Below, piece by piece: positions 9,008 through 23,196 of a DNA stretch of 64,000 nt. The stretch is from Methylocystis sp. B8 (GTDB taxonomy: Bacteria; Pseudomonadota; Alphaproteobacteria; Rhizobiales; Beijerinckiaceae). How positions within the stretch are numbered: position 1 is the first letter of the stretch; the number at the start of each line of letters is the position of its first letter. The DNA lies in contig NZ_VBTZ01000002.1 of assembly GCF_005771425.1 (NCBI RefSeq), forward strand, positions 62,001-126,000. Reading direction: 5' to 3'. The position numbers were made by a program, and so were the translations under genes. A model generated the notes under the pieces. That model saw nothing but the letters and a program-made list of their open reading frames with translations, was not told the origin of the DNA and ran no database searches.

Positions 9008-9817
9008 TCAGTCGGGGGTCAATATCTCGCCTTTGCCATAAACGGCCGTGTCGCCCCCGTAGCGGCGGAGCTTTCGCGAGAGGAGATCGGCGGCCGAGGC
9101 GCTATGATCTCTCAGGCTGCGCGCCAGAAATCGCGTGAAAGTAAGCTCCTGCGGGCCGCAATCGACATAGGTCGAACCGAAGCAGCCGGCGCGGGCGAGC
9201 ACGATAGAGCCGCGCTTGTTTAAATAGCCGATTCGCCCCTTAGCCTCGCCCAAAACGAAGATCGTGCCGGCGATAACGCGCGCCCCGAGATCTTCGCCGG
9301 CGTCGCCTTCGATGACGACAATGCCGCGACGCAGCCGGTCGCCCGCGCGGGCGCCGGCGTTGCCGCGCACGATGACGCGCCCTCCGGCCATCCCGGCGAG
9401 TTCGCCGGCGAGCGGACCGACGAGGAAATCGCCGGCGTCGCCCTTGATCTCGATATCCGCGCCAAGGTTGCCGGAAGCCACATGCGGACCGGCATTCCCG
9501 GCGATGGCGATCTTCCCGCCCTTGGCGAGACGGCCGCACTGTGCACCGACGTCGCCTTCGACATGGATTTCGAAACCGGGCAGAAGTTTCGCGCCAAGAA
9601 GATCGAAGCGCGACGAGCCGCCCTCATAGCGAAGGCTCTTCAGATCGCCTTCGGAAATCTTGAAAATGTCCCCGACCTTCGTCGAAATGCGCGTGACGCC
9701 AATCTCGATCTCTTCGATTTGCGCGATCGACTTGCCGGCGAGACGATCGGGCGTCAGCGGCGAAAGATCGACGCGCTGCGGCGGCTCCTGACGAAGCGTG
9801 AAGGTAAAGGGCTTCAC
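9008..9817 (-). CDS. fhcC: Formyltransferase/hydrolase complex subunit C (FhcC)
   Basis: Subunit C of the Fhc complex, which takes the formyl group from formyl-tetrahydromethanopterin and releases formate during C1 oxidation in methylotrophs. It is homologous to formylmethanofuran dehydrogenase subunit C and the glutamate synthase beta-helix domain. The 269 residues show repeated glycine turns from about residue 80 to 205: KGGKIAIAGNAGPHVASGN, IEIKGDAGDFLVG, RVIVRGNAGARAGDRLRRG and IVVIEGDAGEDLG. The start overlaps the end of fhcD by 4 bp, so translational coupling is likely. Last gene of the fhcB-A-D-C operon. Confidence 0.96.
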   Translation of the reverse strand: MKPFTFTLRQEPPQRVDLSPLTPDRLAGKSIAQIEEIEIGVTRISTKVGDIFKISEGDLKSLRYEGGSSRFDLLGAKLLPGFEIHVEGDVGAQCGRLAKGGKIAIAGNAGPHVASGNLGADIEIKGDAGDFLVGPLAGELAGMAGGRVIVRGNAGARAGDRLRRGIVVIEGDAGEDLGARVIAGTIFVLGEAKGRIGYLNKRGSIVLARAGCFGSTYVDCGPQELTFTRFLARSLRDHSASAADLLSRKLRRYGGDTAVYGKGEILTPD

Positions 9818-10722
9818 GGCAGCAGATCCTTCAAATGATAATGGAACGGCCCGAGCTTGCCGCCGTAATTGCCGGCCCCGACGCGCTTGGCGCCCTGCTC
9901 CGGCCCCATCTCGATGATGGCGTGAAGTCCGGCGCGCATCGCCTCGCGCACGGCGTTATCGGTCAGCCCGTCGATGACGATTTCGAGCACGCAGCCGATA
10001 TCCTCATCGAGCGCGCTCTTCGTGACGCCACGCAGCGTCGGACAATAAGCGTCATTGGTCGAAGCGCTCATGCCCTTGTATTGCGAACCAACCTTGGAGC
10101 CCGAGCGCACAATGCCGCCGGGAAACGGCGCAATGGCGTCGGCGACGCCGTCGATCGCCGCTACGGCGGCCTCGGTCGCGCGCATGGTCTTGTCCCAATC
10201 CGCGCCCATGATCAAAAGATTGCCGCCGCCCACGGACTTCTTCGTCAGACCGACCTTGCCCTCGCAAAAGAACTCTCCGTCCATCACCGGCACACGCCAG
10301 TAGCGCCGGCTGTCGACGACCTTGGACATCTGCCATTTGTCGCCGAATTGGCGCACTGCGTCGCCGACCTTGATCTCGAATTCGCCGGCGACCGTCGAAT
10401 AGACTGCCGAGCCCGGGCAGGTCAGCACGCATTGGCCGAGTCGATTGACGAGCTGCTTCTCGGCGTCCTTCGACGACATGGCGAAGAGCAGCGCCCGCAC
10501 GCCCGGTCGCCCGTCCGGCGTTTCTTCCGGCGGCACTTCGCGATCAATGCCGGCCTCACAGCCGCAGCCGATGACCGACGTCGCGAAGCCCGTCATCGTC
10601 AGCGCCGCCTGGCGCGCCCATTTGGCGTTTGGCGCGGTGATCAGAATGCCTGTCCCGCTCATCGGGAAGGCTTCGGCGAAATTGTCGTCTATTCTCACGC
10701 CATTGCGAACTATATCCGGCAT
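9814..10722 (-). CDS. fhcD: Formylmethanofuran--tetrahydromethanopterin formyltransferase (FhcD/Ftr)
   Basis: Transfers the formyl group between tetrahydromethanopterin and a methanofuran-type carrier; in methylotrophs it works inside the Fhc complex toward formate. The 302 residues match Ftr length. Visible motifs are VRIDDNFAEAFPMSGTGILI at the N-terminus, VIGCGCEAGIDREVPPEETPDGRPG, CVLTCPGSAVYS, and the C-terminal NYGGKLGPFHYHLKDLLP. Its start overlaps fhcA by 13 bp and its end overlaps fhcC by 4 bp, so the complex subunits are probably made in a fixed ratio. Diagnostic of H4MPT-dependent C1 metabolism. Confidence 0.97.
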   Translation of the reverse strand: MPDIVRNGVRIDDNFAEAFPMSGTGILITAPNAKWARQAALTMTGFATSVIGCGCEAGIDREVPPEETPDGRPGVRALLFAMSSKDAEKQLVNRLGQCVLTCPGSAVYSTVAGEFEIKVGDAVRQFGDKWQMSKVVDSRRYWRVPVMDGEFFCEGKVGLTKKSVGGGNLLIMGADWDKTMRATEAAVAAIDGVADAIAPFPGGIVRSGSKVGSQYKGMSASTNDAYCPTLRGVTKSALDEDIGCVLEIVIDGLTDNAVREAMRAGLHAIIEMGPEQGAKRVGAGNYGGKLGPFHYHLKDLLP

Positions 10723-12347
10723 GGAACCTCCGCAAAGGCGTCCTTGTGCGGCAGCGCGGCGTCGGGCACGTCGAAAATGCTTCGCGGCAGGCCGTAAAGA
10801 TCGTCGTAATAGGTATCGAGGCGCTTGGTGATCTCGCGATCGTAGCGCGGACGAATGTGCAGCGTCTTGCCACGCGTATAATGCGAGACTTCGCCATCGC
10901 GCACGACGAGATTGCCGTCCTTGAACACATAAGACGCGCGGCGGAACATGCCGGCGACGTCGCGTCCCGGCTTATATACGGCGATGTCGGCAACGGCGCC
11001 CGCGCCAAGCCGGCCGCGATCTTCAAAGCCGAAGAGTTTCGCTGCGCCGGAACGGCTCATCTGCGCGATTTCATAAAGCGTGTATTCGCGTGAAATCGAC
11101 GGCAGCGTGGTGTGCTCCAGCACGTCCGCCGGCAGGCGCGAAAGATGTTGCGCACGAAGGTCGGCGCTCATCAGCAGCGCGAAAAGTTCCGGATAGGTCG
11201 TGAACGGACCGCCATTCGGATGGTCGGTGGTGAAGAACACCTGTTCGGGATTTTCAATGAGCAGGAACAGCTCCAGCCCCGCCGCCCATTGAACGGCGTT
11301 GTAATAATTCGAAATCTTATAGGCGTAGGGAACGATGCCGCCGCCATTGGCGTCGCCGTCGAAGATCGCGCCCTTCTTCGGGATCGCGCCGGGCAAGCTG
11401 TTGAACTGTTTCAGAACGTCGGACGAGATCGTCACCGTGTCGGAGAACATCACTTGTCCGACATCGACGCTGACATTCGGATTGGCGTTGATCTTCTCGG
11501 CGAAGATCGCGCCGGCCGACGAGAAGCCGTTCTTGCCCTCCTTGCCATAGGCATAGAACTGCACATGGGCGAGATGGAGCGGCAGGCCCTGCGCGGCGTC
11601 GATCGTTGCGAGCGCCGTGTCGATATTGCCGGCAAGACCGAGATTATTCATGTGCAGATGCAGCGGGTGAGCGATCCCCACTGCTTGAGTCGCCTTCTGC
11701 AGCGCCTGGAAAATCTGGCGCGACGTCAGCCCATAGAAGGGCACGACGTCGTCAAGCCCAAAGGCGCGCATATTCTCCTTGAAGGCCTCGACGCCGCCGG
11801 GATTAATGCACTTCAAGCCGAGCGAACGGGTGTTCTCGACCGTCTGCGCGACATAATCATTGATCGCGCCGTCCTTCTCGCCGTCGCGCAACATGCCGAG
11901 TAGAAAGTCGTCGTTGCCGAGCACGGTGAGCGCGCCCTTGTCGATGATTGGCACGTCGTTGAATTCGAGATGGGTCTGCAAGGCGTGATGCGGCGCCATC
12001 GCCGGCTCGACGACGGTGGTAAAGCCCATCTGCGCATAGAGGCGGCCGGTCTCGTAGCTCGACCATTTGGCGGTCGAAAGCGGCGTGCCGGCGAGCCGCG
12101 CGCGAATCGCGCGATGCAGCTCCGGCAACAGCAATCGCGCCGTGTTCACATTACCGCCCGCGATGTGCGAATGAATGTCGATCGCGCCGGCCATGACGAT
12201 GTGACCGGAGACGTCGATCTCCTTGTCGGCGCTGCGGCCGTCGGGTCGCTCGACGACGCGGCCGTCCTCGAACCAGACGTCGCCGATGGCGTCCTGCCCG
12301 GTCGCCGGATCGACGATATGGCCGCCGCGCAAAACTGTCAGCGCCAT
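10710..12347 (-). CDS. fhcA: Formyltransferase/hydrolase complex subunit A (FhcA)
   Basis: Amidohydrolase-family catalytic subunit homologous to FmdA/FwdA. In the methylotroph complex it hydrolyses the formyl carrier to formate. The 545 residues are normal. The metal-site start DIHSHIAGGNVN (about residue 57-68) has the HxH pair; further histidines appear at PLHLHMNN, LHLAHVQFYAYG and TTDHPNGGPFTTYPE. GGHIVDPATGQDAIGDVWFEDG at the N-terminus is the amidohydrolase composite domain. It overlaps fhcB by 10 bp and fhcD by 13 bp. Confidence 0.97.
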   Translation of the reverse strand: MALTVLRGGHIVDPATGQDAIGDVWFEDGRVVERPDGRSADKEIDVSGHIVMAGAIDIHSHIAGGNVNTARLLLPELHRAIRARLAGTPLSTAKWSSYETGRLYAQMGFTTVVEPAMAPHHALQTHLEFNDVPIIDKGALTVLGNDDFLLGMLRDGEKDGAINDYVAQTVENTRSLGLKCINPGGVEAFKENMRAFGLDDVVPFYGLTSRQIFQALQKATQAVGIAHPLHLHMNNLGLAGNIDTALATIDAAQGLPLHLAHVQFYAYGKEGKNGFSSAGAIFAEKINANPNVSVDVGQVMFSDTVTISSDVLKQFNSLPGAIPKKGAIFDGDANGGGIVPYAYKISNYYNAVQWAAGLELFLLIENPEQVFFTTDHPNGGPFTTYPELFALLMSADLRAQHLSRLPADVLEHTTLPSISREYTLYEIAQMSRSGAAKLFGFEDRGRLGAGAVADIAVYKPGRDVAGMFRRASYVFKDGNLVVRDGEVSHYTRGKTLHIRPRYDREITKRLDTYYDDLYGLPRSIFDVPDAALPHKDAFAEVPCRI

Positions 12348-13438
12348 GCGCCCTCCGAAACTTCCGCCATGATGGCGCTGATCGCCTGCGCGACGCTTGG
12401 CGCGTCGGTCGGCGCGCTTGCTTTACGCAGCGTCATGCCGCCGGTTTCTTGACTCATCAGCACCGCGTCATGGGTGACGCCGGGCTGACCCACCTCGATG
12501 AACAGCCCGCGAGACGGCGCAGCGTTCGCCGGCGCAAGCGTAATGAGCGGAATATCGGCGTGGGACCAAGCGGGTTTCTCGCCGTCAAAAGCGGAGATCC
12601 ACAGCGCCGCGTCGGCCTCGCCGCTCTCGACGAGCCGCAAGGCTTCGAAACGCCACGGATCATGCTCCGGATAGCCGCGGCCAAAGCCCGTGCGCGGCGG
12701 AAAGCCCGTCATCCAACCGGCTGTTTGAGTGACGCCCGAAGCGCCGCTGCGGCCGCCGATATGAACGCCGGTGAAGCGCGTCGTGGCGTTGAGCTCGATC
12801 ACCAGACCCTGCAGCATCTCGATCGCCAGCGGATCGAGCGTCGACGCCGACCACGCGAACACGCCAAAACGCGCATTCTTTAGCGTCTCAACGAGGCCGT
12901 CGATGAGGCTGACCTTATCAGCGTCGAGCGCCACAGGCCGTCCACCGAATCGGGCGCGCCACGCCGCTAGAACGCCCGAAAGCTCCTGCGCGGAGGCCGG
13001 GATGACCTTTGCGCCAGGGACGGCGCTCGCCTCGTCTCCTTCCGGCCCAAGCCAAATCACCTTACGCGGCTGCTCCGCCTGCGCGCCGCGGCGCGGCGGC
13101 TGCGAAAGCGCAAGCCGTTCCAACATTCCCGGCCAGGCGCGCGTCAGCCCGGGGCCAATCAGCACGACGCAGTCGCCGCGCAGGCGCGCCTCATTCGCCG
13201 TCGTCGTGAACATGCCGAAGGAACGCTTGACGTCGATATCGGCGAGCGTTTCGCGCGACGCCAGATGATCGAAGGCGCCCCTCAGTTGCTCTGCCAGAAG
13301 AATGGCGGCGCGCGCTCCGGCGACGTCGGCGCCAAGGCCGGCGACAAGCGGAAAGGCTGCGCCGCTGAGAATTTTGGCGGCGTGTCGATAGGCGTCGTCA
13401 AGCGCGATCGCCTTGCCGTCGAGCGTCGCTGTCTCCAT
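12338..13438 (-). CDS. fhcB: Formyltransferase/hydrolase complex subunit B (FhcB)
   Basis: First gene of the operon. FhcB is a reduced relative of the molybdenum/tungsten subunit FwdB; in bacteria it has lost the redox cofactor role and is thought to be structural. The 366 residues include PLVAGLGADVAGARAAILLA, CVVLIGPGLTRAWPGML, HIGGRSGASGVTQTAGWMTG and RGLFIEVGQPGVTHDAVLMS, which fit the family. No cysteine or molybdopterin-type motif is seen. The ATG is preceded by AGGA. The 347 bp upstream, shared with divergent pqqA, must hold the operon promoter, but I could not assign one. Confidence 0.93.
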   Translation of the reverse strand: METATLDGKAIALDDAYRHAAKILSGAAFPLVAGLGADVAGARAAILLAEQLRGAFDHLASRETLADIDVKRSFGMFTTTANEARLRGDCVVLIGPGLTRAWPGMLERLALSQPPRRGAQAEQPRKVIWLGPEGDEASAVPGAKVIPASAQELSGVLAAWRARFGGRPVALDADKVSLIDGLVETLKNARFGVFAWSASTLDPLAIEMLQGLVIELNATTRFTGVHIGGRSGASGVTQTAGWMTGFPPRTGFGRGYPEHDPWRFEALRLVESGEADAALWISAFDGEKPAWSHADIPLITLAPANAAPSRGLFIEVGQPGVTHDAVLMSQETGGMTLRKASAPTDAPSVAQAISAIMAEVSEGAWR

Positions 13439-13863: not shown

Positions 13864-14001
13864 TTTCGGCGCGGCCTTCCTTCGAAGGCGCCAACGAATT
13901 TTCAAATCGGGCCGGCAAGAAGAGCGCTGCTTTAAGCGGATTGCGCTTTTCGATTTGCCGGCTCGATTTTTTTGATCGGCGATCAGGAACAGGAGGCCAA
14001 A

Positions 14002-15039
14002 TTGCGCTTATCTTCTTTCTTCGTCGCCCTTGGCTTCGCCCTGTTCGTCGCTGCGACGGCCGGAGCCGAAAGTCCGAACGCGAAAACCCTTCTTGAGGAC
14101 GCGAAACGGAATTTTCAGCCGATCGTCGCTCCTTCCACCGTCGGCAATCCGGTGGCCGCCGCACGCGTCGAACTTGGGCGCCGGCTCTTCTTTGAAAATC
14201 GCGTGTCGATGGACGGCAACGTCAATTGCGCTCATTGCCATCTGCCGGAGAAACAGGCGAGCGACGGCCTGCCGAAGGCGATCGGCGTGTTCGGCAAGGA
14301 GAATCCGCGCAACGCGCCCTCGATCTTCAACGCCGCGCTGAATTTCAAGCAGCATTGGCGCGGCGACCGCGAGTCGCTTGAAGACCAGGCGGAAAAATCG
14401 CTGTTAGGCCCTGCAAGTTTCGGCAATCCCGATCAGGCGACGGCAATGAGCAAATTGAAGGCGATTCCCGCCTACGCTGACGCATTTACAAAGGCCTTTC
14501 CCGGCGACAAGGACCCAATCAATTCCAAGAATTGGGGCCTCGCGGTCGGCGCCTTCGAGCGCACGCTGCTGACGCCGTCAAAATTCGATGCCTTCCTTGC
14601 CGGCGACGAATCGGCGCTCACGAAACAAGAGCAGGCGGGCTTACGCAAGTTCATCGATCTCGGCTGCGCCTCTTGCCACAATGGGCCGAGCGTCGGCGGC
14701 AATTCCTTTCAGAAATTCGGCGTCGTGAACGATTACTGGAAGGAAACCGGAGTCGCTAATCCCGACAAGGGTCGGGCGGACGTCACCAAGAATGACGCCG
14801 ACCTTTATGTCTTCAAAGTCGCAAGCCTGCGCAATGTGGCGCGCACTGCTCCCTATTTTCACGACGGGTCAGTCGACGATCTGACCAAGGCAGTGAAGAT
14901 CATGGGCAAGACGCAGCTCGGAACGGAGCTGTCGGATCAGGACGCTGCCGATATTGTCGCTTTTCTCGGCGCGCTGACCGGCCCTGTTCCGGCGAATTAT
15001 TCCCCGCCGGACCCCTATCCGGACGCACCAGGAAAGTAG
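14002..15039 (+). CDS. Periplasmic di-heme cytochrome c peroxidase (CcpA/MauG superfamily)
   Basis: Exported di-heme c-type protein. A signal peptide (LSSFFVALGFALFVAATAGA) is followed by two heme-attachment motifs: CAHCH near residue 75 in NCAHCHLPEKQASDG, and CASCH near residue 220 in LGCASCHNGPSVGG. RNAPSIFNAALN and SLRNVARTAPYFHDGS are conserved family segments. The start is the TTG at 14002 because AGGAGG lies 6 bases ahead; an upstream TTG at 13972 has no such site. Members either reduce hydrogen peroxide or, like MauG and MbnH, modify a partner protein; sequence alone does not decide. The adjacency to pqqA is suggestive but not proof of a shared role. Confidence 0.93.
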   Translation: MRLSSFFVALGFALFVAATAGAESPNAKTLLEDAKRNFQPIVAPSTVGNPVAAARVELGRRLFFENRVSMDGNVNCAHCHLPEKQASDGLPKAIGVFGKENPRNAPSIFNAALNFKQHWRGDRESLEDQAEKSLLGPASFGNPDQATAMSKLKAIPAYADAFTKAFPGDKDPINSKNWGLAVGAFERTLLTPSKFDAFLAGDESALTKQEQAGLRKFIDLGCASCHNGPSVGGNSFQKFGVVNDYWKETGVANPDKGRADVTKNDADLYVFKVASLRNVARTAPYFHDGSVDDLTKAVKIMGKTQLGTELSDQDAADIVAFLGALTGPVPANYSPPDPYPDAPGK

Positions 15040-17612: not shown

Positions 17613-17943
17613 CGTCCTCCATAAACTTAGCGGATGTACTTAAGGGGCTACGCCAAAGACGCAGTGCCCTGCTCGCCGAGCAGTCGTGCTCTTAAAAGCT
17701 TGGGCACGACGGAGTTGTGAGCGCCTGCGATGAATTTGAAGATATGTGAAGAATATTTCATCTGACTAGCGAACGCCTTTCGGCCGCCGCTGCAGCGGCA
17801 ATCTCCTGCTCCAAAGGGTCAAGCCATTGGCGTCCCTTCTCATTTCTTCCCGCTGACCACTCGCCGCCGACGCGCCTGCAACTCGATCGCGAGTCCCCTA
17901 TATGCGGCTGCAGCGCTTGGCTATGCATTCATGGAGGCGGCGC
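17613..17943. other. Intergenic stretch without recognisable gene
   Basis: About 330 bp between the divergent SpoIIAA-like and DUF1614 genes. I see an imperfect dyad (CGTGCTC...GGGCACG) near 17686-17709 and a GCCGCTGCAGCGGC palindrome near 17790, neither assignable. The promoters of both neighbours must lie here, but none could be placed with confidence. No RNA gene was recognised. Confidence 0.4.
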
Positions 17944-18675
17944 GTGTATTCCCACCAGCTTCATTATCTTCCCCTGCCGCCGCTAATTTATGCGGTCTTC
18001 TTTGGCGCGCTTGTCGCGCTATTCGTGCTGATACAGCTTGGCGCGCTGCACTATGCCTATAGCCGCATCGGTCTGAGCTCCAGATCTGCGACGCTCGTGC
18101 TGCTCGCTTCGCTACTTGGAAGCTACATAAACATTCCCGTGGCACACTTCGCCAACGAACGCGTCGTTCCTCAGGAAATGATCGATTTCTTCGGAAGGCG
18201 TTATGTGGTCCCGATGATCGTCGATTGGCCGGGAATGATACTGGCCGTGAACGTTGGCGGCGCCGTCATTCCGATTCTGCTTTCGATTTATCTGCTTGCC
18301 CGCAACCGCATTTGGATCGTCGCAACCTTGGCGACGGCGATCGTCGCCGTTGTCGTCCACTTGTTCTCGCGGATTGTTCCCGGCGTCGGCATCAGCGTGC
18401 CCATTCTGGCGCCGCCGATCTTATCGGCGGTTCTGGCGATATTGTTGTCGCGCGATTTCGCCGCGCCGATTGCCTATGTCAGCGGCAGTCTCGGCACCCT
18501 GATCGGCGCGGACTTGCTCAATCTCGGCAGAATACAAGAGATCGGGACGCCCGTCGCATCCTTTGGCGGCGCAGGGACGTTCGACGGCATATTCGTTACC
18601 GGAATTCTTGCCGTGCTCATCGCGAGCCTTCCCTTGCGCCGGAAGCCTTCCGGCGTTTCGCCTACGACGCAGTAG
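17944..18675 (+). CDS. DUF1614 integral membrane protein
   Basis: Multi-helix inner-membrane protein of 243 residues with at least six hydrophobic segments. The N-terminal LHYLPLPPLIYAVFF and the polar loop SYINIPVAHFANERVV are characteristic of DUF1614, as are VNVGGAVIPILLSIYL, VGISVPILAPPILSAVLAIL and GSLGTLIGADLLNLGRIQ. The family has no established function; the conserved GGAxIPI and GTLIGADL motifs hint at transport. The start is GTG 17944, placed 6 bases after GGAGG; two in-frame ATGs up to 42 bases upstream lack such a site. It precedes lanM on the same strand by 111 bp. Confidence 0.85.
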   Translation: MYSHQLHYLPLPPLIYAVFFGALVALFVLIQLGALHYAYSRIGLSSRSATLVLLASLLGSYINIPVAHFANERVVPQEMIDFFGRRYVVPMIVDWPGMILAVNVGGAVIPILLSIYLLARNRIWIVATLATAIVAVVVHLFSRIVPGVGISVPILAPPILSAVLAILLSRDFAAPIAYVSGSLGTLIGADLLNLGRIQEIGTPVASFGGAGTFDGIFVTGILAVLIASLPLRRKPSGVSPTTQ

Positions 18676-18786: not shown

Positions 18787-19188
18787 ATGAAGAAAGCATT
18801 GCTGCTCGGCGCGCTGGCGCTTGCCGGCGCCATGGCGCTGCCGGCGACGGGCGCGCTCGCGAAGGCGACGGGTCCCGTCGCTGCGCTTGACACCGATAAT
18901 GACGGCACGGTCGATCTCAATGAAATCAATAAATCCGCCACTGATCTTTTTACGCGTCTCGAGAAGGACTCGGATGGGACGGTTGACGTTAAAGAAATGA
19001 AGGGACGCGTTTCGAAGAAAGAATTCAAAGAAGCCGATCCTGACAGTGACGGAACGCTATCCAAGGACGAGTTTCTCACTATGGTCTCCGGGATGTTCAA
19101 GGAGGCGGACCCTGACAATGACGGGACGCTTGACGCCAAGGAGCTCGGATCCAAGAAGGGTAAGGCGCTGCTCCGCGTGACAAGGTGA
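18787..19188 (+). CDS. lanM: Lanmodulin-like periplasmic EF-hand protein (lanthanide-binding)
   Basis: 133 residues with a signal peptide ending near ALA at residue 25, and four 12-residue EF-hand loops: D35-E46 (DTDNDGTVDLNE), E59-E70 (EKDSDGTVDVKE), D84-E95 (DPDSDGTLSKDE) and D108-E119 (DPDNDGTLDAKE). The loops are 12, 13 and 12 residues apart, the tight spacing that marks lanmodulin; calmodulin spacing is about twice that. KELKGRVS-like (KEMKGRVSK) and the end AKELGSKKGKALL also match. Oddities: the lanmodulin proline at loop position 2 is present only in loops 3 and 4 (T36 and K60 instead), loop 2 begins with E59, and loop 3 has S92 at position 9. Strong AAAGGAGT site. It heads the ABC cluster. 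Confidence 0.88.
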   Translation: MKKALLLGALALAGAMALPATGALAKATGPVAALDTDNDGTVDLNEINKSATDLFTRLEKDSDGTVDVKEMKGRVSKKEFKEADPDSDGTLSKDEFLTMVSGMFKEADPDNDGTLDAKELGSKKGKALLRVTR

Positions 19189-19255: not shown

Positions 19256-20434
19256 ATGAAAAGCTTGGTCGCCGCCTTCTGTTTGCTGCTCGTAGCCGTA
19301 CCGGTTGCGGCTGAAACGGTGAACGTCAAGGTCGGCGTTCTGCGTGAAGCGCATTCGCGGGAGACCCTTTCCATTCTCGATATTCCCGCCGCTGACGATA
19401 CGCTCGCCGGCGCGCTGCTCGGCGTGGCCGACAACAACACCACGGGAAAATTCACCAACCAGACATTTGAGGCGATCGACGCCAAGCTTGACGAGGGCGA
19501 TGACGTGGTCGCGGCGTTCGACTCGCTGATCGAGAAGGGGGCGCTTTTCATCATCGCCGACCTCTCGCCTGAACGCCTGCTCGCGGCTTCTAATCGCGCC
19601 AAATCGAAGGGCGCCCTGCTCTTCAACGTCTCCGCCGCGGATGACCGACTTCGCGAAGAGGATTGCCGCACAAATGTCATCCATGTCGCGCCGACGCGAT
19701 CGATGCTGGCGGACGGTTTAGCGCAATATCTTGTGTGGAAGCAGTGGCGACGCTGGCTCATGATCAAGGGATCGCATCCGAAAGACGAGCTCCTGGCCCA
19801 AGCCTTCCGCAACAGCGCCAAAAAATTCGGCGCGAAGATCGTCGAAGAACGCGTCTATGAAGACACTGGCGGCGGGCGGCGCAGCGACTCTGGCTCCGTT
19901 CAAACGCAGCGGCAGATGCCGCTGCTGACGCAGAATGCGCCAGCCTATGACGTGCTCATCGCCGCCGACGAAAGCGAGGTATTCGGCGGCTACCTTCCCT
20001 ATCGCACCTGGGATCCGCGCCCGGTCGCCGGTTCGGCTGGCCTAATGCCGACGAACTGGGGCCCCGCGCATGAACAATGGGGCGCGCTTCAGTTGCAGAA
20101 CCGCTTCATCCAGACCTTCAGACGTTTGATGAATGCGCGCGACAATGCGGCGTGGCTTGCGATGCGCATGATCGGCGAAGCTGCGACGCGCACTGCATCG
20201 AACGACGTCGAGAAGCTGCGCCTCTATATGCTCGGCAAGGACTTCTCCATCGCCGCCTTCAAAGGCGTGCGGCTCACGTTGCGGCCATGGAATCAGCAAT
20301 TGCGCCAACCGATACTTCTTTCCGATGGACGGATGGTCGTCTCGGTTTCGCCGCAGGAAGGCTTCCTCCATCAAACGAGTGAACTCGACACGCTCGGAGT
20401 CGACCAGCCGGAGACGAAATGCAGATTGAAATGA
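19256..20434 (+). CDS. lutA: ABC transporter periplasmic binding protein, PQQ/lanthanide cluster (LutA-like)
   Basis: Exported protein of 392 residues (signal peptide MKSLVAAFCLLLVAVPVAA) with a type I periplasmic binding fold, close to the family annotated as substrate-binding protein of PQQ-dependent alcohol dehydrogenase ABC systems. Markers are LFNVSAADDRLREEDCRTNVIHVAPTRSMLADGLAQYLVWKQW (shown in part: CRTNVIHVAPTRSMLADGL), TWDPRPVAGSAGLMPTNWGP and MLGKDFSIAAFKGVRLTLRP. In Methylorubrum the orthologous lut cluster, next to lanM, is needed for lanthanide uptake. The gene is 67 bp after lanM and probably cotranscribed. The ligand is not proven; a lanthanide-chelate or PQQ-related ligand is possible. 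Confidence 0.82.
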   Translation: MKSLVAAFCLLLVAVPVAAETVNVKVGVLREAHSRETLSILDIPAADDTLAGALLGVADNNTTGKFTNQTFEAIDAKLDEGDDVVAAFDSLIEKGALFIIADLSPERLLAASNRAKSKGALLFNVSAADDRLREEDCRTNVIHVAPTRSMLADGLAQYLVWKQWRRWLMIKGSHPKDELLAQAFRNSAKKFGAKIVEERVYEDTGGGRRSDSGSVQTQRQMPLLTQNAPAYDVLIAADESEVFGGYLPYRTWDPRPVAGSAGLMPTNWGPAHEQWGALQLQNRFIQTFRRLMNARDNAAWLAMRMIGEAATRTASNDVEKLRLYMLGKDFSIAAFKGVRLTLRPWNQQLRQPILLSDGRMVVSVSPQEGFLHQTSELDTLGVDQPETKCRLK

Positions 20435-20465
20435 ACAAGGCTCTTCCGATTCATTCTCGTTTCCG

Positions 20466-20548
20466 GCGTCATGGCCGGGCTTGTCGCGGTCATCCATGCG
20501 AGAGTCCCAACGGCGTGGATGCCCGCGACAAGCGCGGGCATGACACGC
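20466..20548 (+). repeat. Palindromic repeat (GTCATGCCCGCG-TTGTCGCGGGCATCC family) between lutA and lutD
   Basis: Two imperfect arms face each other: GCGTCATGGCCGGGCTTGTC with ATCCATG on the left, and CGTGGATGCCCGCGACAAGC with GGGCATGACACGC on the right. This is a well-known alphaproteobacterial intergenic repeat. It fills most of the 128-bp gap between two genes that are otherwise expected to be close, and it lengthens the open frame upstream of the beta-propeller gene, so gene callers may place that start too early. Confidence 0.75.
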
Positions 20549-20562
20549 GTTACGCGATCAGC

Positions 20563-21522
20563 ATGACTATATCCGCCTTCCTTTGCTCTACGCTTCTCGT
20601 CACGCCCGCCGGCGCCTACAAGGCTTACGTCAGCAATGAAAAGGGCAATTCCATCACCGTCCTCGACACCGACAAGCTTGAAGCGACGGCGACTGTGAAA
20701 GTTGGCCGCCGACCGCGCGGCATCGCGCTCAATAAGGACGGGTCCGAACTCTACATTTGCGCAGGCGACGACGACGCCATCCAGCTGCTCGACACTAAGA
20801 CGCTGAAAATTACGGGCAAGCTGCCGTCAGGCCCTGATCCCGAGCTTCTGGCGCTCAGTCCAGACGGCAATATCATCTATGTTTCGAACGAAAACGATAA
20901 TCTCGTCACGCTCATTGACGTGAAGAAGAAGGAGATGATCGGCGACATTCCAGTCGGCGTTGAACCCGAGGGCATGGCGGTCAGTCCCAACGGCAAACTG
21001 CTCGTCAATACTTCTGAGACGACCAATATGGCGCATTTGATCGACACGCAGTCGAAAGAAATCGTCGCGAATATTCTCGTTGATGGGCGGCCGCGTTTCG
21101 CCGAATTCAAACAGGATGGTTCGGAGCTTTGGGTTTCGTCAGAAGTTGGTGGAACGGTCGCCGTCATCGATCCTGTGAAACGTGAATTGAAGCAGAAGAT
21201 CAGCTTCGACATTCCGGCGATGTCGAAGGAAGCGATCCAACCGATCGGGATTTCTTTCACGCGCGACGGAAAACGCGCCTTCGTGGCGCTTGGACCGGCC
21301 AATCGTGTTGCGGTGATCGACGCCGAGACGAAAAAGATCGAAAAATATTTGCTCGTCGGTCAGCGCGTCTGGCACCTCGCCTTCACGCCCGACGAAAAAT
21401 ATCTGCTCACCGCCAACGGCGTCTCCAACGACGTATCGGTGATCGACGTCGCGTCGCTCAAAGTGCTGAAGTCGATTCCAGTTGGTGCCTTTCCATGGGG
21501 CGTCGTCGTGGCGCCACAATGA
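20563..21522 (+). CDS. lutD: YVTN-type beta-propeller protein of the PQQ/lanthanide ABC cluster (LutD-like)
   Basis: 319-residue exported protein; signal peptide MTISAFLCSTLLVTPAGA. The mature part is a seven-bladed propeller built from YVTN-type repeats: AYVSNEKGNSITVLDTDKLE, SELYICAGDDDAIQLLDTKT, IIYVSNENDNLVTLIDVKKK and so on to KYLLTANGVSNDVSVIDVAS. The family is annotated as PQQ-dependent catabolism-associated beta-propeller. In the Methylorubrum lut cluster the equivalent periplasmic protein is, as I recall, LutD. The start is ATG 20563, because the 48 codons open upstream run through a palindromic repeat. The role is probably periplasmic binding or handover. Confidence 0.8.
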   Translation: MTISAFLCSTLLVTPAGAYKAYVSNEKGNSITVLDTDKLEATATVKVGRRPRGIALNKDGSELYICAGDDDAIQLLDTKTLKITGKLPSGPDPELLALSPDGNIIYVSNENDNLVTLIDVKKKEMIGDIPVGVEPEGMAVSPNGKLLVNTSETTNMAHLIDTQSKEIVANILVDGRPRFAEFKQDGSELWVSSEVGGTVAVIDPVKRELKQKISFDIPAMSKEAIQPIGISFTRDGKRAFVALGPANRVAVIDAETKKIEKYLLVGQRVWHLAFTPDEKYLLTANGVSNDVSVIDVASLKVLKSIPVGAFPWGVVVAPQ

Positions 21523-21528
21523 CAAACA

Positions 21529-21611
21529 CGTCATTGCGAGGCGCGTCAGCGACGAAGCAATCCAGGGCAGCGTGCCTAATTCTGGATTGCTTCGCTTCGC
21601 TCGCAATGACG
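21529..21611 (+). repeat. Palindromic repeat (GTCATTGCGAG-GAAGCAATCCAG family) between lutD and lutE
   Basis: Left arm CGTCATTGCGAGGCG then GACGAAGCAATCCAG; right arm CTGGATTGCTTCGCTTCGCT then CGCAATGACG. The arms pair over about 30 bp with small bulges. This common alphaproteobacterial repeat occupies nearly all of the 100-bp gap before the ATPase gene. Its transcript would be a stable hairpin and could affect read-through or mRNA stability within the cluster. Confidence 0.78.
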
Positions 21612-21622
21612 GAAACGCTCCA

Positions 21623-22369
21623 GTGACCCCTGCGCTCACGATCAAAGAGGTCAGCCACTCGTACGGCCCGCGAAAGGCCCTCGACGACGTCAGCTTTTCC
21701 GTTCCTCCCGGCAGCTTCACCGTGCTTCTGGGATTGAACGGCGCCGGCAAGAGCACGCTGTTCTCGCTCATCACCCGGCTCTACGCGGCGCGCCACGGCG
21801 AGATCGAGATCTTCGGTCATAACATCATGCGCGAGCCCGGCGCCGCACTGCGCCGGCTCGGCGTCGTTTTTCAGGCGCGCACGCTCGATCTCGAATTAAG
21901 CGTGATGCAGAACCTCGTCTATCACGCCGCCCTGCATGGCATTGGACCGATCGAAGCGCGCCGCCTTGCACACGCGGCGCTAGCGCGGGCGGGACTCGCC
22001 GACCGCGCGAAGGACAAGGCGCGCGCGCTGTCGGGCGGACAGATGCGCCGCGTCGAAATCGCGCGCGCGCTTCTACACGAACCGCGGCTGCTGCTTCTCG
22101 ACGAGGCGACTGTCGGGCTCGACATCAAGGCGCGCGCCGATCTTCTCGCGCTTGTACGCGAGCTGGTGCAGGAAAAGCGACTTGGCGTTTTGTGGGCAAC
22201 ACATCTCATCGACGAGATCGCCGACGACGATCAGGTGGTCATTTTGCATCAGGGCAGAGTGCTCGCGACAGACCGAGCGCAAGCGATCATCGTAGAGCAA
22301 GCCGCGGCGAACATCGGCGACGCCTTCACGCATATCACCGGCGCGGCTCAGGAGAAGCTTTCGGCATGA
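21623..22369 (+). CDS. lutE: ABC transporter ATP-binding protein, PQQ/lanthanide cluster (LutE-like)
   Basis: 248-residue ATPase. Walker A is LNGAGKST, the Q-loop is VVFQARTLDLELS, the signature is ALSGGQMRRVEIARALLHEP, and Walker B is RLLLLDEATVGLD, followed by the H-loop ATHLIDEI. EVSHSYGPRKALDDVSF at the start is typical of the PQQ-dependent alcohol dehydrogenase ABC family. The start is GTG 21623 (VTPALTIKEV): the ATG-initiated frame beginning 141 bases earlier would translate a palindromic repeat and overlap the propeller gene. It overlaps the permease gene by 4 bp (ATGA). Confidence 0.87.
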   Translation: MTPALTIKEVSHSYGPRKALDDVSFSVPPGSFTVLLGLNGAGKSTLFSLITRLYAARHGEIEIFGHNIMREPGAALRRLGVVFQARTLDLELSVMQNLVYHAALHGIGPIEARRLAHAALARAGLADRAKDKARALSGGQMRRVEIARALLHEPRLLLLDEATVGLDIKARADLLALVRELVQEKRLGVLWATHLIDEIADDDQVVILHQGRVLATDRAQAIIVEQAAANIGDAFTHITGAAQEKLSA

Positions 22370-23196
22370 GCGAAATCGCTGCGCCCAGTGGCTTCACCCT
22401 TCGCCAATATCTGATCTGTCTCTCGGGAGTCGTCTGGCGCGAGGGCTTACGCTTTCTGCATCAGCGCGAACGCTTCGTCTCCGCGCTGGTGCGGCCGCTC
22501 GTTTGGCTCTTCATCTTCGCGGCGGGCTTCCGGCAGGTGCTCGGCGTGTCGATCATCCCGCCTTACGAGACCTACGTGCTCTATGAGGTCTATATCGCAC
22601 CGGGCCTCATGGCGATGATCCAGCTCTTCAATGGCATGCAATCCTCGCTCTCAATGGTTTACGACCGCGAGATGGGCAATATGCGCACGCTGCTCGTCTC
22701 GCCCTTTCCGCGCTGGTTTCTTCTCGGCTCCAAACTTTTGGCGGGCGTCGCCGTCTCGATTTTGCAGGTCTACGCCTTCCTGCTGATCGCCTATTTCTGG
22801 GAGATCGAGCCGCCGTCGAAATGGGGCTATGTCACGGTGCTGCCGGCGCTCGCGCTCAGCGGATTGATGCTCGGCGCACTCGGCATGCTGCTGTCGTCGC
22901 TGATCAAACAGCTCGAAAATTTTGCGGGCGTGATGAACTTCGTCATCTTCCCAATGTTCTTCGCGTCCTCCGCGCTCTATCCGCTGTGGCGCGTGAAAGA
23001 GTCGAGCCCATGGCTCTATTATGTATGCGAAGTCAATCCGTTCACCCATGCGGTCGAACTGATCCGCTTCGCTTTTTATGAGAAGGTTGCATGGACCTCG
23101 CTCGCAATCGTATTCGCCTATACGAGCGCGTTCCTCGTCGCCGCCATCCTCGCCTATGATCCCGCGCGCGGCATGCTGATGCGCAGGGGCGGCTAG
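22366..23196 (+). CDS. lutF: ABC transporter permease, PQQ/lanthanide cluster (LutF-like)
   Basis: 276-residue ABC-2 type permease with six hydrophobic helices: VRPLVWLFIFAAGFRQVLG, YIAPGLMAMIQLFNGMQSSL, LLAGVAVSILQVYAFLLIAY, LPALALSGLMLGALGMLLS, NFVIFPMFFASSALYPLW and AYTSAFLVAAILAYDPARG. YDREMGNMRTLLVSPFPRWF is the conserved cytosolic loop. It pairs with the ATPase by a 4-bp overlap. ABC-2 permeases are usually exporters, yet genetic work in Methylorubrum assigns the equivalent system to lanthanide uptake, so direction here is open. Last gene of the plus-strand cluster; a convergent gene follows 10 bp later. Confidence 0.87.
   Translation: MSEIAAPSGFTLRQYLICLSGVVWREGLRFLHQRERFVSALVRPLVWLFIFAAGFRQVLGVSIIPPYETYVLYEVYIAPGLMAMIQLFNGMQSSLSMVYDREMGNMRTLLVSPFPRWFLLGSKLLAGVAVSILQVYAFLLIAYFWEIEPPSKWGYVTVLPALALSGLMLGALGMLLSSLIKQLENFAGVMNFVIFPMFFASSALYPLWRVKESSPWLYYVCEVNPFTHAVELIRFAFYEKVAWTSLAIVFAYTSAFLVAAILAYDPARGMLMRRGG

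Follow-up and report, generated by a model that had tools for sequence, protein, structure and literature searches.

A Methylocystis lanmodulin with threonine and lysine at position 2 of its first two EF loops, encoded beside a Lut-type transporter

A stretch of 64,000 nucleotides from Methylocystis sp. B8 (contig NZ_VBTZ01000002.1, positions 62,001 to 126,000; hereafter the window) carries a gene, lanM, for a small, probably exported protein with four EF-hand loops, two of which have threonine or lysine in place of proline at position 2. The locus raises the question of whether this protein is a lanmodulin (LanM) at all and, if so, whether its loops set it apart in sequence or in metal binding. 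The gene is almost certainly an ordinary lanmodulin of a Methylocystis methanotroph, and its loop pattern is the commonest one among the relatives sampled.

Lanmodulin identity of the protein

Against the NCBI LanM model NF053806 the protein scores 156.7 bits (equivalog cut-off 135) with an E-value of 3.1e-46, so that the likeness cannot be put down to chance, and its predicted fold is the three-helix bundle of LanM. Adjacent loops are separated by 12, 13 and 12 residues. These features agree with the hallmarks given in a description of 696 putative LanMs (PMC10232371), namely four EF hands in fewer than 200 residues, a spacing of 12 to 13 residues and proline at position 2 (Pro2) of at least one loop, here loops 3 and 4. 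The precursor begins with a signal-like N-terminus, MKKALLLGALALAGAMALPATGALAKA (judged by eye from the translation), and a good ribosome-binding site, AAAAGGAG, lies just 5′ of the ATG (Table 1). The nearest relatives are found in two metagenome-assembled genomes of Alphaproteobacteria (96% and 92%), followed by Methylocystis sp. strain L43 (91%). When the host genome was searched with the protein, the lone match at E ≤ 0.001 was lanM itself.

The gene lies directly upstream, on the same strand, of a four-gene PedA1A2BC/Lut-type transporter operon, all four members of which score above their curated cut-offs, and only 67 bases separate it from the first of them. This arrangement, with lanM codirectional, upstream and within 1 kb of a TIGR03863 gene, recurs in 20 of the 24 genomes of the same genus in which LanM is matched. 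Of 298 genomes searched in the wider taxonomic family, 122 match the LanM model, 90 of them above the cut-off, as compared with one and none, respectively, of 14 control genomes; among methanotrophs, LanM has been reported only in Methylocystaceae and Beijerinckiaceae (PMC12482762). The sequence-only reading of the gene as a lanmodulin homologue is thus upheld by profile, sequence, predicted fold, gene neighbourhood and tree. Its account of the layout (133 residues, four EF loops, 12/13/12 spacing) and of the individual loop residues was likewise correct throughout.

Table 1. Features of the lanM locus and of related loci; positions are those of the window unless another locus is named.
Feature	Position	Strand	Basis or remark
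lanM, lanmodulin precursor, 133 amino acids, ATG start	18787..19188	+	open reading frame (ORF) translation
Probable Sec signal peptide, about residues 1-26	18787..18864, end approximate	+	by eye from translation
EF loop 1, DTDNDGTVDLNE, precursor residue 35, Thr at position 2	18889..18924	+	
EF loop 2, EKDSDGTVDVKE, precursor residue 59, Glu1 and Lys2	18961..18996	+	
EF loop 3, DPDSDGTLSKDE, precursor residue 84, Pro2 and Ser9	19036..19071	+	
EF loop 4, DPDNDGTLDAKE, precursor residue 108, Pro2	19108..19143	+	
Pyrroloquinoline quinone (PQQ)-associated ATP-binding cassette (ABC) substrate-binding protein, PedA1/LutA-type	19256..20434	+	TIGR03863, 473.7 bits, cut-off 413.6
YVTN beta-propeller, PedA2-type	20419..21522	+	TIGR03866, 508.1 bits, cut-off 287.3; match begins at residue 59, true start probably after the listed ATG
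ABC ATP-binding subunit, PedB/LutE-type	21482..22369	+	TIGR03864, 333.2 bits, cut-off 302.25; match begins at residue 51, true start probably later
ABC permease, PedC/LutF-type	22360..23196, within ORF listed from 22192	+	TIGR03861, 398.5 bits, cut-off 241.35
DUF1614 protein	17902-18675	+	
Di-haem MauG/MbnH-like protein	13972-15039	+	Pfam CCP_MauG match; below MauG/MbnH family cut-offs
fhcC, D, A, B	9008-13438	-	B subunit below cut-off (143.9 vs 327.8 bits)
Second EF-hand protein	L033:8421-8906		
Second EF-hand protein	L094:4998-5483		same record as L033
Second EF-hand protein	L038:7289-7774		
Second LanM copy, L110	G277:C4, about 130698-131073		two adjacent pieces in different frames

Loop pattern among relatives

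Loop residues were compared over 112 distinct rows, derived from 120 of 130 matches, the ten under 110 bits being left out. The sampling is uneven, as loci had been picked by similarity to the window protein, by top score or by hand (from the same genus and from other places), and some genomes occur in both locus collections; identical trimmed rows were merged and others kept. The window protein was merged with L001 as one row, and one row is an ordinary EF-hand protein (L085).

The 12/13/12 spacing is present in 116 of the 120 aligned matches. At position 2 over the four loops, the window's pattern T/K/P/P is the most frequent in this biased sample (48/112 rows), as against 13/112 for P/P/P/P, so that the loops, earlier described as "altered", cannot be regarded as a rarity. 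Taken singly, loop 1 has Thr at position 2 in 82 of the 112 rows, with Pro in 20; loop 2 has Lys there in 69, with Pro in 14, and begins with Glu in 68 rows and with Asp in 40. For position 9 of loop 3 the counts are 54 for Asp, 32 for Ser and 26 for Thr, the last two together making up 58/112. Among the 25 same-genus matches (from 26 loci), 15 are T/K/P/P, 18 have Ser9 in loop 3 and none has proline at position 2 of loop 1 or 2. Taken alone, the loci obtained by similarity search (70 matches) include 22 of T/K/P/P and 13 of P/P/P/P type; those of the genome-contig set (48 matches) include 32 of T/K/P/P type and none with a proline at that position in either of the first two loops. The T/K/P/P pattern was published for the LanM of strain 22A as early as 2022 (PMC9260416), and LanMs with three, two and one of the four prolines are known (PMC12603986).

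The exact loop 3, DPDSDGTLSKDE, was seen only in the window gene among the fetched loci. Loops 1, 2 and 4 are identical in L032/L109 and L034, and the difference in loop 3 from these is the Ser at position 4, a residue shared by 18/112 rows.

Two trees, both with few columns and many unresolved forks, were built. One, of 72 rows, comprised 62 hand-picked rows of the 112, the window protein, three PDB chains and six EF-hand outgroup rows; the other, of 114 rows, comprised 110 of the 112 with the window protein and three PDB chains, the four position-2 columns being left out. Fourteen rows of the 72-row tree have Pro in loop 1; twelve of them, including that of Methylorubrum extorquens AM1 (Mex-LanM), group together (94/87). 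This group is nested within a larger starred set of 22 rows, the remaining ten of which lack this proline. In the 114-row tree, Pro in loop 1 requires at least four changes. Because of this nesting and these repeated changes, the four-proline form is suggested by the sequences, on a weak rooting, to be derived and not the norm.

Other patterns were encountered among the matches. Three four-proline LanMs (L029, L030 and L120) are spaced 12/11/12 rather than 12/13/12. Four matches, all below the LanM cut-off, lack Pro2 in every loop (patterns A/K/L/K, N/K/L/T, S/S/T/K and T/A/T/T): L123 and L124 (genus code g4), which form their own branch in the 72-row tree (100/100), L087 from the same genus and L125 from the same family. 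Such Pro2-free matches may belong to distinct subfamilies of EF-hand proteins with short spacing.

Lanmodulins, a family known for binding rare-earth metals, attract study as a means of recovering these elements, and natural variants are of practical value. The window protein opens no new kind of system, and the novelty earlier claimed for it does not stand; its value is mainly corrective, in that the four-proline pattern is a minority among the sampled relatives (13/112) and the T/K/P/P form deserves measurements.

Metal binding, proposed role and alternatives

It had been proposed that proline-free loops 1 and 2, together with Ser9 of loop 3, could give the protein a distinct stoichiometry or rare-earth selectivity. 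Positions 1, 2 and 9 are indeed named as important in Mex-LanM, and the Hansschlegelia quercus protein (Hans-LanM), with other residues there, differs in lanthanide selectivity (PMC10232371); that position 2 bears on the preference for lanthanides over calcium is backed by Pro-to-Ala replacement in AM1 LanM, which lowered this selectivity (PMC12603986). The same replacement, however, kept lanthanide affinity and altered only calcium discrimination, and the window protein has D1/E1/D1 and D9/D9/S9 in loops 1 to 3 and not the Asn1/Glu9 of the Hans type. As for stoichiometry, the published Thr2/Lys2 protein of strain 22A binds 3.65 La3+ per molecule in recombinant form and becomes more compact with La (the His-tagged form shows a smaller shift with Ca2+; PMC9260416), and since this gives no hint of fewer sites, a reduced stoichiometry is no longer expected. 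Overall, the proposal appears doubtful. A further reading, rather unlikely as it stands, would be that Ser9 of loop 3 and the Thr/Lys loops alter how water is coordinated and which ion size is preferred at one of the tight sites, such that Ser/Thr9 LanMs would form a natural functional class differing from Mex-LanM in light/heavy lanthanide or calcium discrimination. On that reading the four-proline Mex protein, the laboratory standard, would be a derived exception.

As an ordinary lanmodulin, and by analogy with characterised relatives, the protein would be exported to the periplasm and remain little structured until trivalent lanthanides bind, whereupon Asp and Glu side chains of at least three tight EF loops would hold the ions in a compact three-helix form. 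It may act as a lanthanide buffer or shuttle linking uptake at the outer membrane with the adjacent ABC importer and the lanthanide-dependent XoxF, and help to hold free Ln3+ low. Thr2 and Lys2 of loops 1 and 2 would keep high lanthanide affinity, perhaps with slightly less discrimination against Ca2+ there than in the AM1 protein. In relatives, deletion of lanM in strain 22A leads to La-dependent aggregation and periplasmic La deposits (PMC9260416), and La supplementation upregulates the lanmodulin gene of Beijerinckiaceae bacterium RH AL1 more than any other gene (PMC8316094).

Several observations weigh against this account. Methanol growth is intact after lanM deletion in strains PA1 and 22A (PMC9260416), which leaves the shuttle role a proposal even in relatives. 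The gene order is not kept in four of the 24 same-genus genomes (G057, G089, G151 and G203), one same-genus genome (G254) gave no match in the LanM model search, and the M. trichosporium OB3b proteome is described as lacking a confident LanM detection (PMC12482762). Generic Pfam EF-hand models match the window protein, as expected for any EF-hand protein, and other EF-hand families match weakly, below their cut-offs (XopAW family, 38 bits vs 120). That it is an ordinary calmodulin-like calcium protein merely resembling lanmodulin, to which these Pfam matches and the commonness of Thr and Lys at position 2 of calmodulin-type loops (PMC12603986) would lend support, is rejected as highly improbable in the face of the profile score and tree placement.

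Gene neighbourhood and comparison with known lanmodulins

The operon downstream of lanM has the composition of Pseudomonas putida pedA1A2BC (permease, ATP-binding, YVTN and substrate-binding proteins), which is required for 2-phenylethanol growth at low La3+ and whose products are more than 43% (pedA2) and more than 50% (the other three) identical to Methylobacterium extorquens lanthanide transporters (PMC6839425). In AM1, lutA, lutE and lutF act in La uptake (PMC7391723).

In some Methylocystis, lanM and the transporter gene are separated by the gene of a divergent second EF-hand protein, which has a DRNGNGVLDHDE loop (Table 1); an EF-hand gene is so placed in G190, which is counted among the 20 of 24. 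The second LanM copy, L110, sits upstream of another PQQ-ABC binding protein and looks like a broken duplicate. Directly upstream of lanM in the window is a DUF1614 gene, which also occurs close to it in several Methylocystis loci, though not in all. The MauG/MbnH-like gene stands beside a response regulator and histidine kinase pair and is also found close to lanM at several other loci of the genus. Farther off are the fhc genes for formylmethanofuran dehydrogenase/formyltransferase of one-carbon metabolism, and a transfer RNA scan of the window found none. Two PQQ alcohol dehydrogenases above the family cut-off are encoded in the host genome, one with DEWDYDG, whose extra Asp we take to mark the lanthanide-dependent XoxF, and one with DEWDYAG, whose Ala presumably marks the calcium-dependent MxaF.

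Among known lanmodulins, that of Methylobacterium aquaticum 22A is close in its loops, sharing Thr2 in loop 1 and Lys2 in loop 2, and has about the same length (134 residues); it is periplasmic (PMC9260416) and likewise has two of the four prolines (PMC12603986). Its gene adjoins purine, hemolysin-like and adenylate cyclase genes and not a lanthanide transporter (PMC9260416), whereas the window gene adjoins the Lut-type operon. Hans-LanM (PDB 8dq2, 8fnr) is more distant, at about 36% identity, with Asn1/Glu9 in loops 1 to 3 and a La-driven dimer (PMC10232371). The Methylocystis lanmodulins of a published survey, 15 sequences with Mex-type motifs, come from the same genus as the window (PMC12482762). 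Mex-LanM (PDB 8fns, 6mi5) shares the fold and the 12/13/12 spacing, with about 51-52% identity over the mature part, and its gene lies in the lut transporter cluster (PMC7391723) much as the window gene lies upstream of a Lut-type operon; unlike the window protein, it carries proline at position 2 of every loop, together with Asp9 in loop 3 and Asn1 in loop 4.
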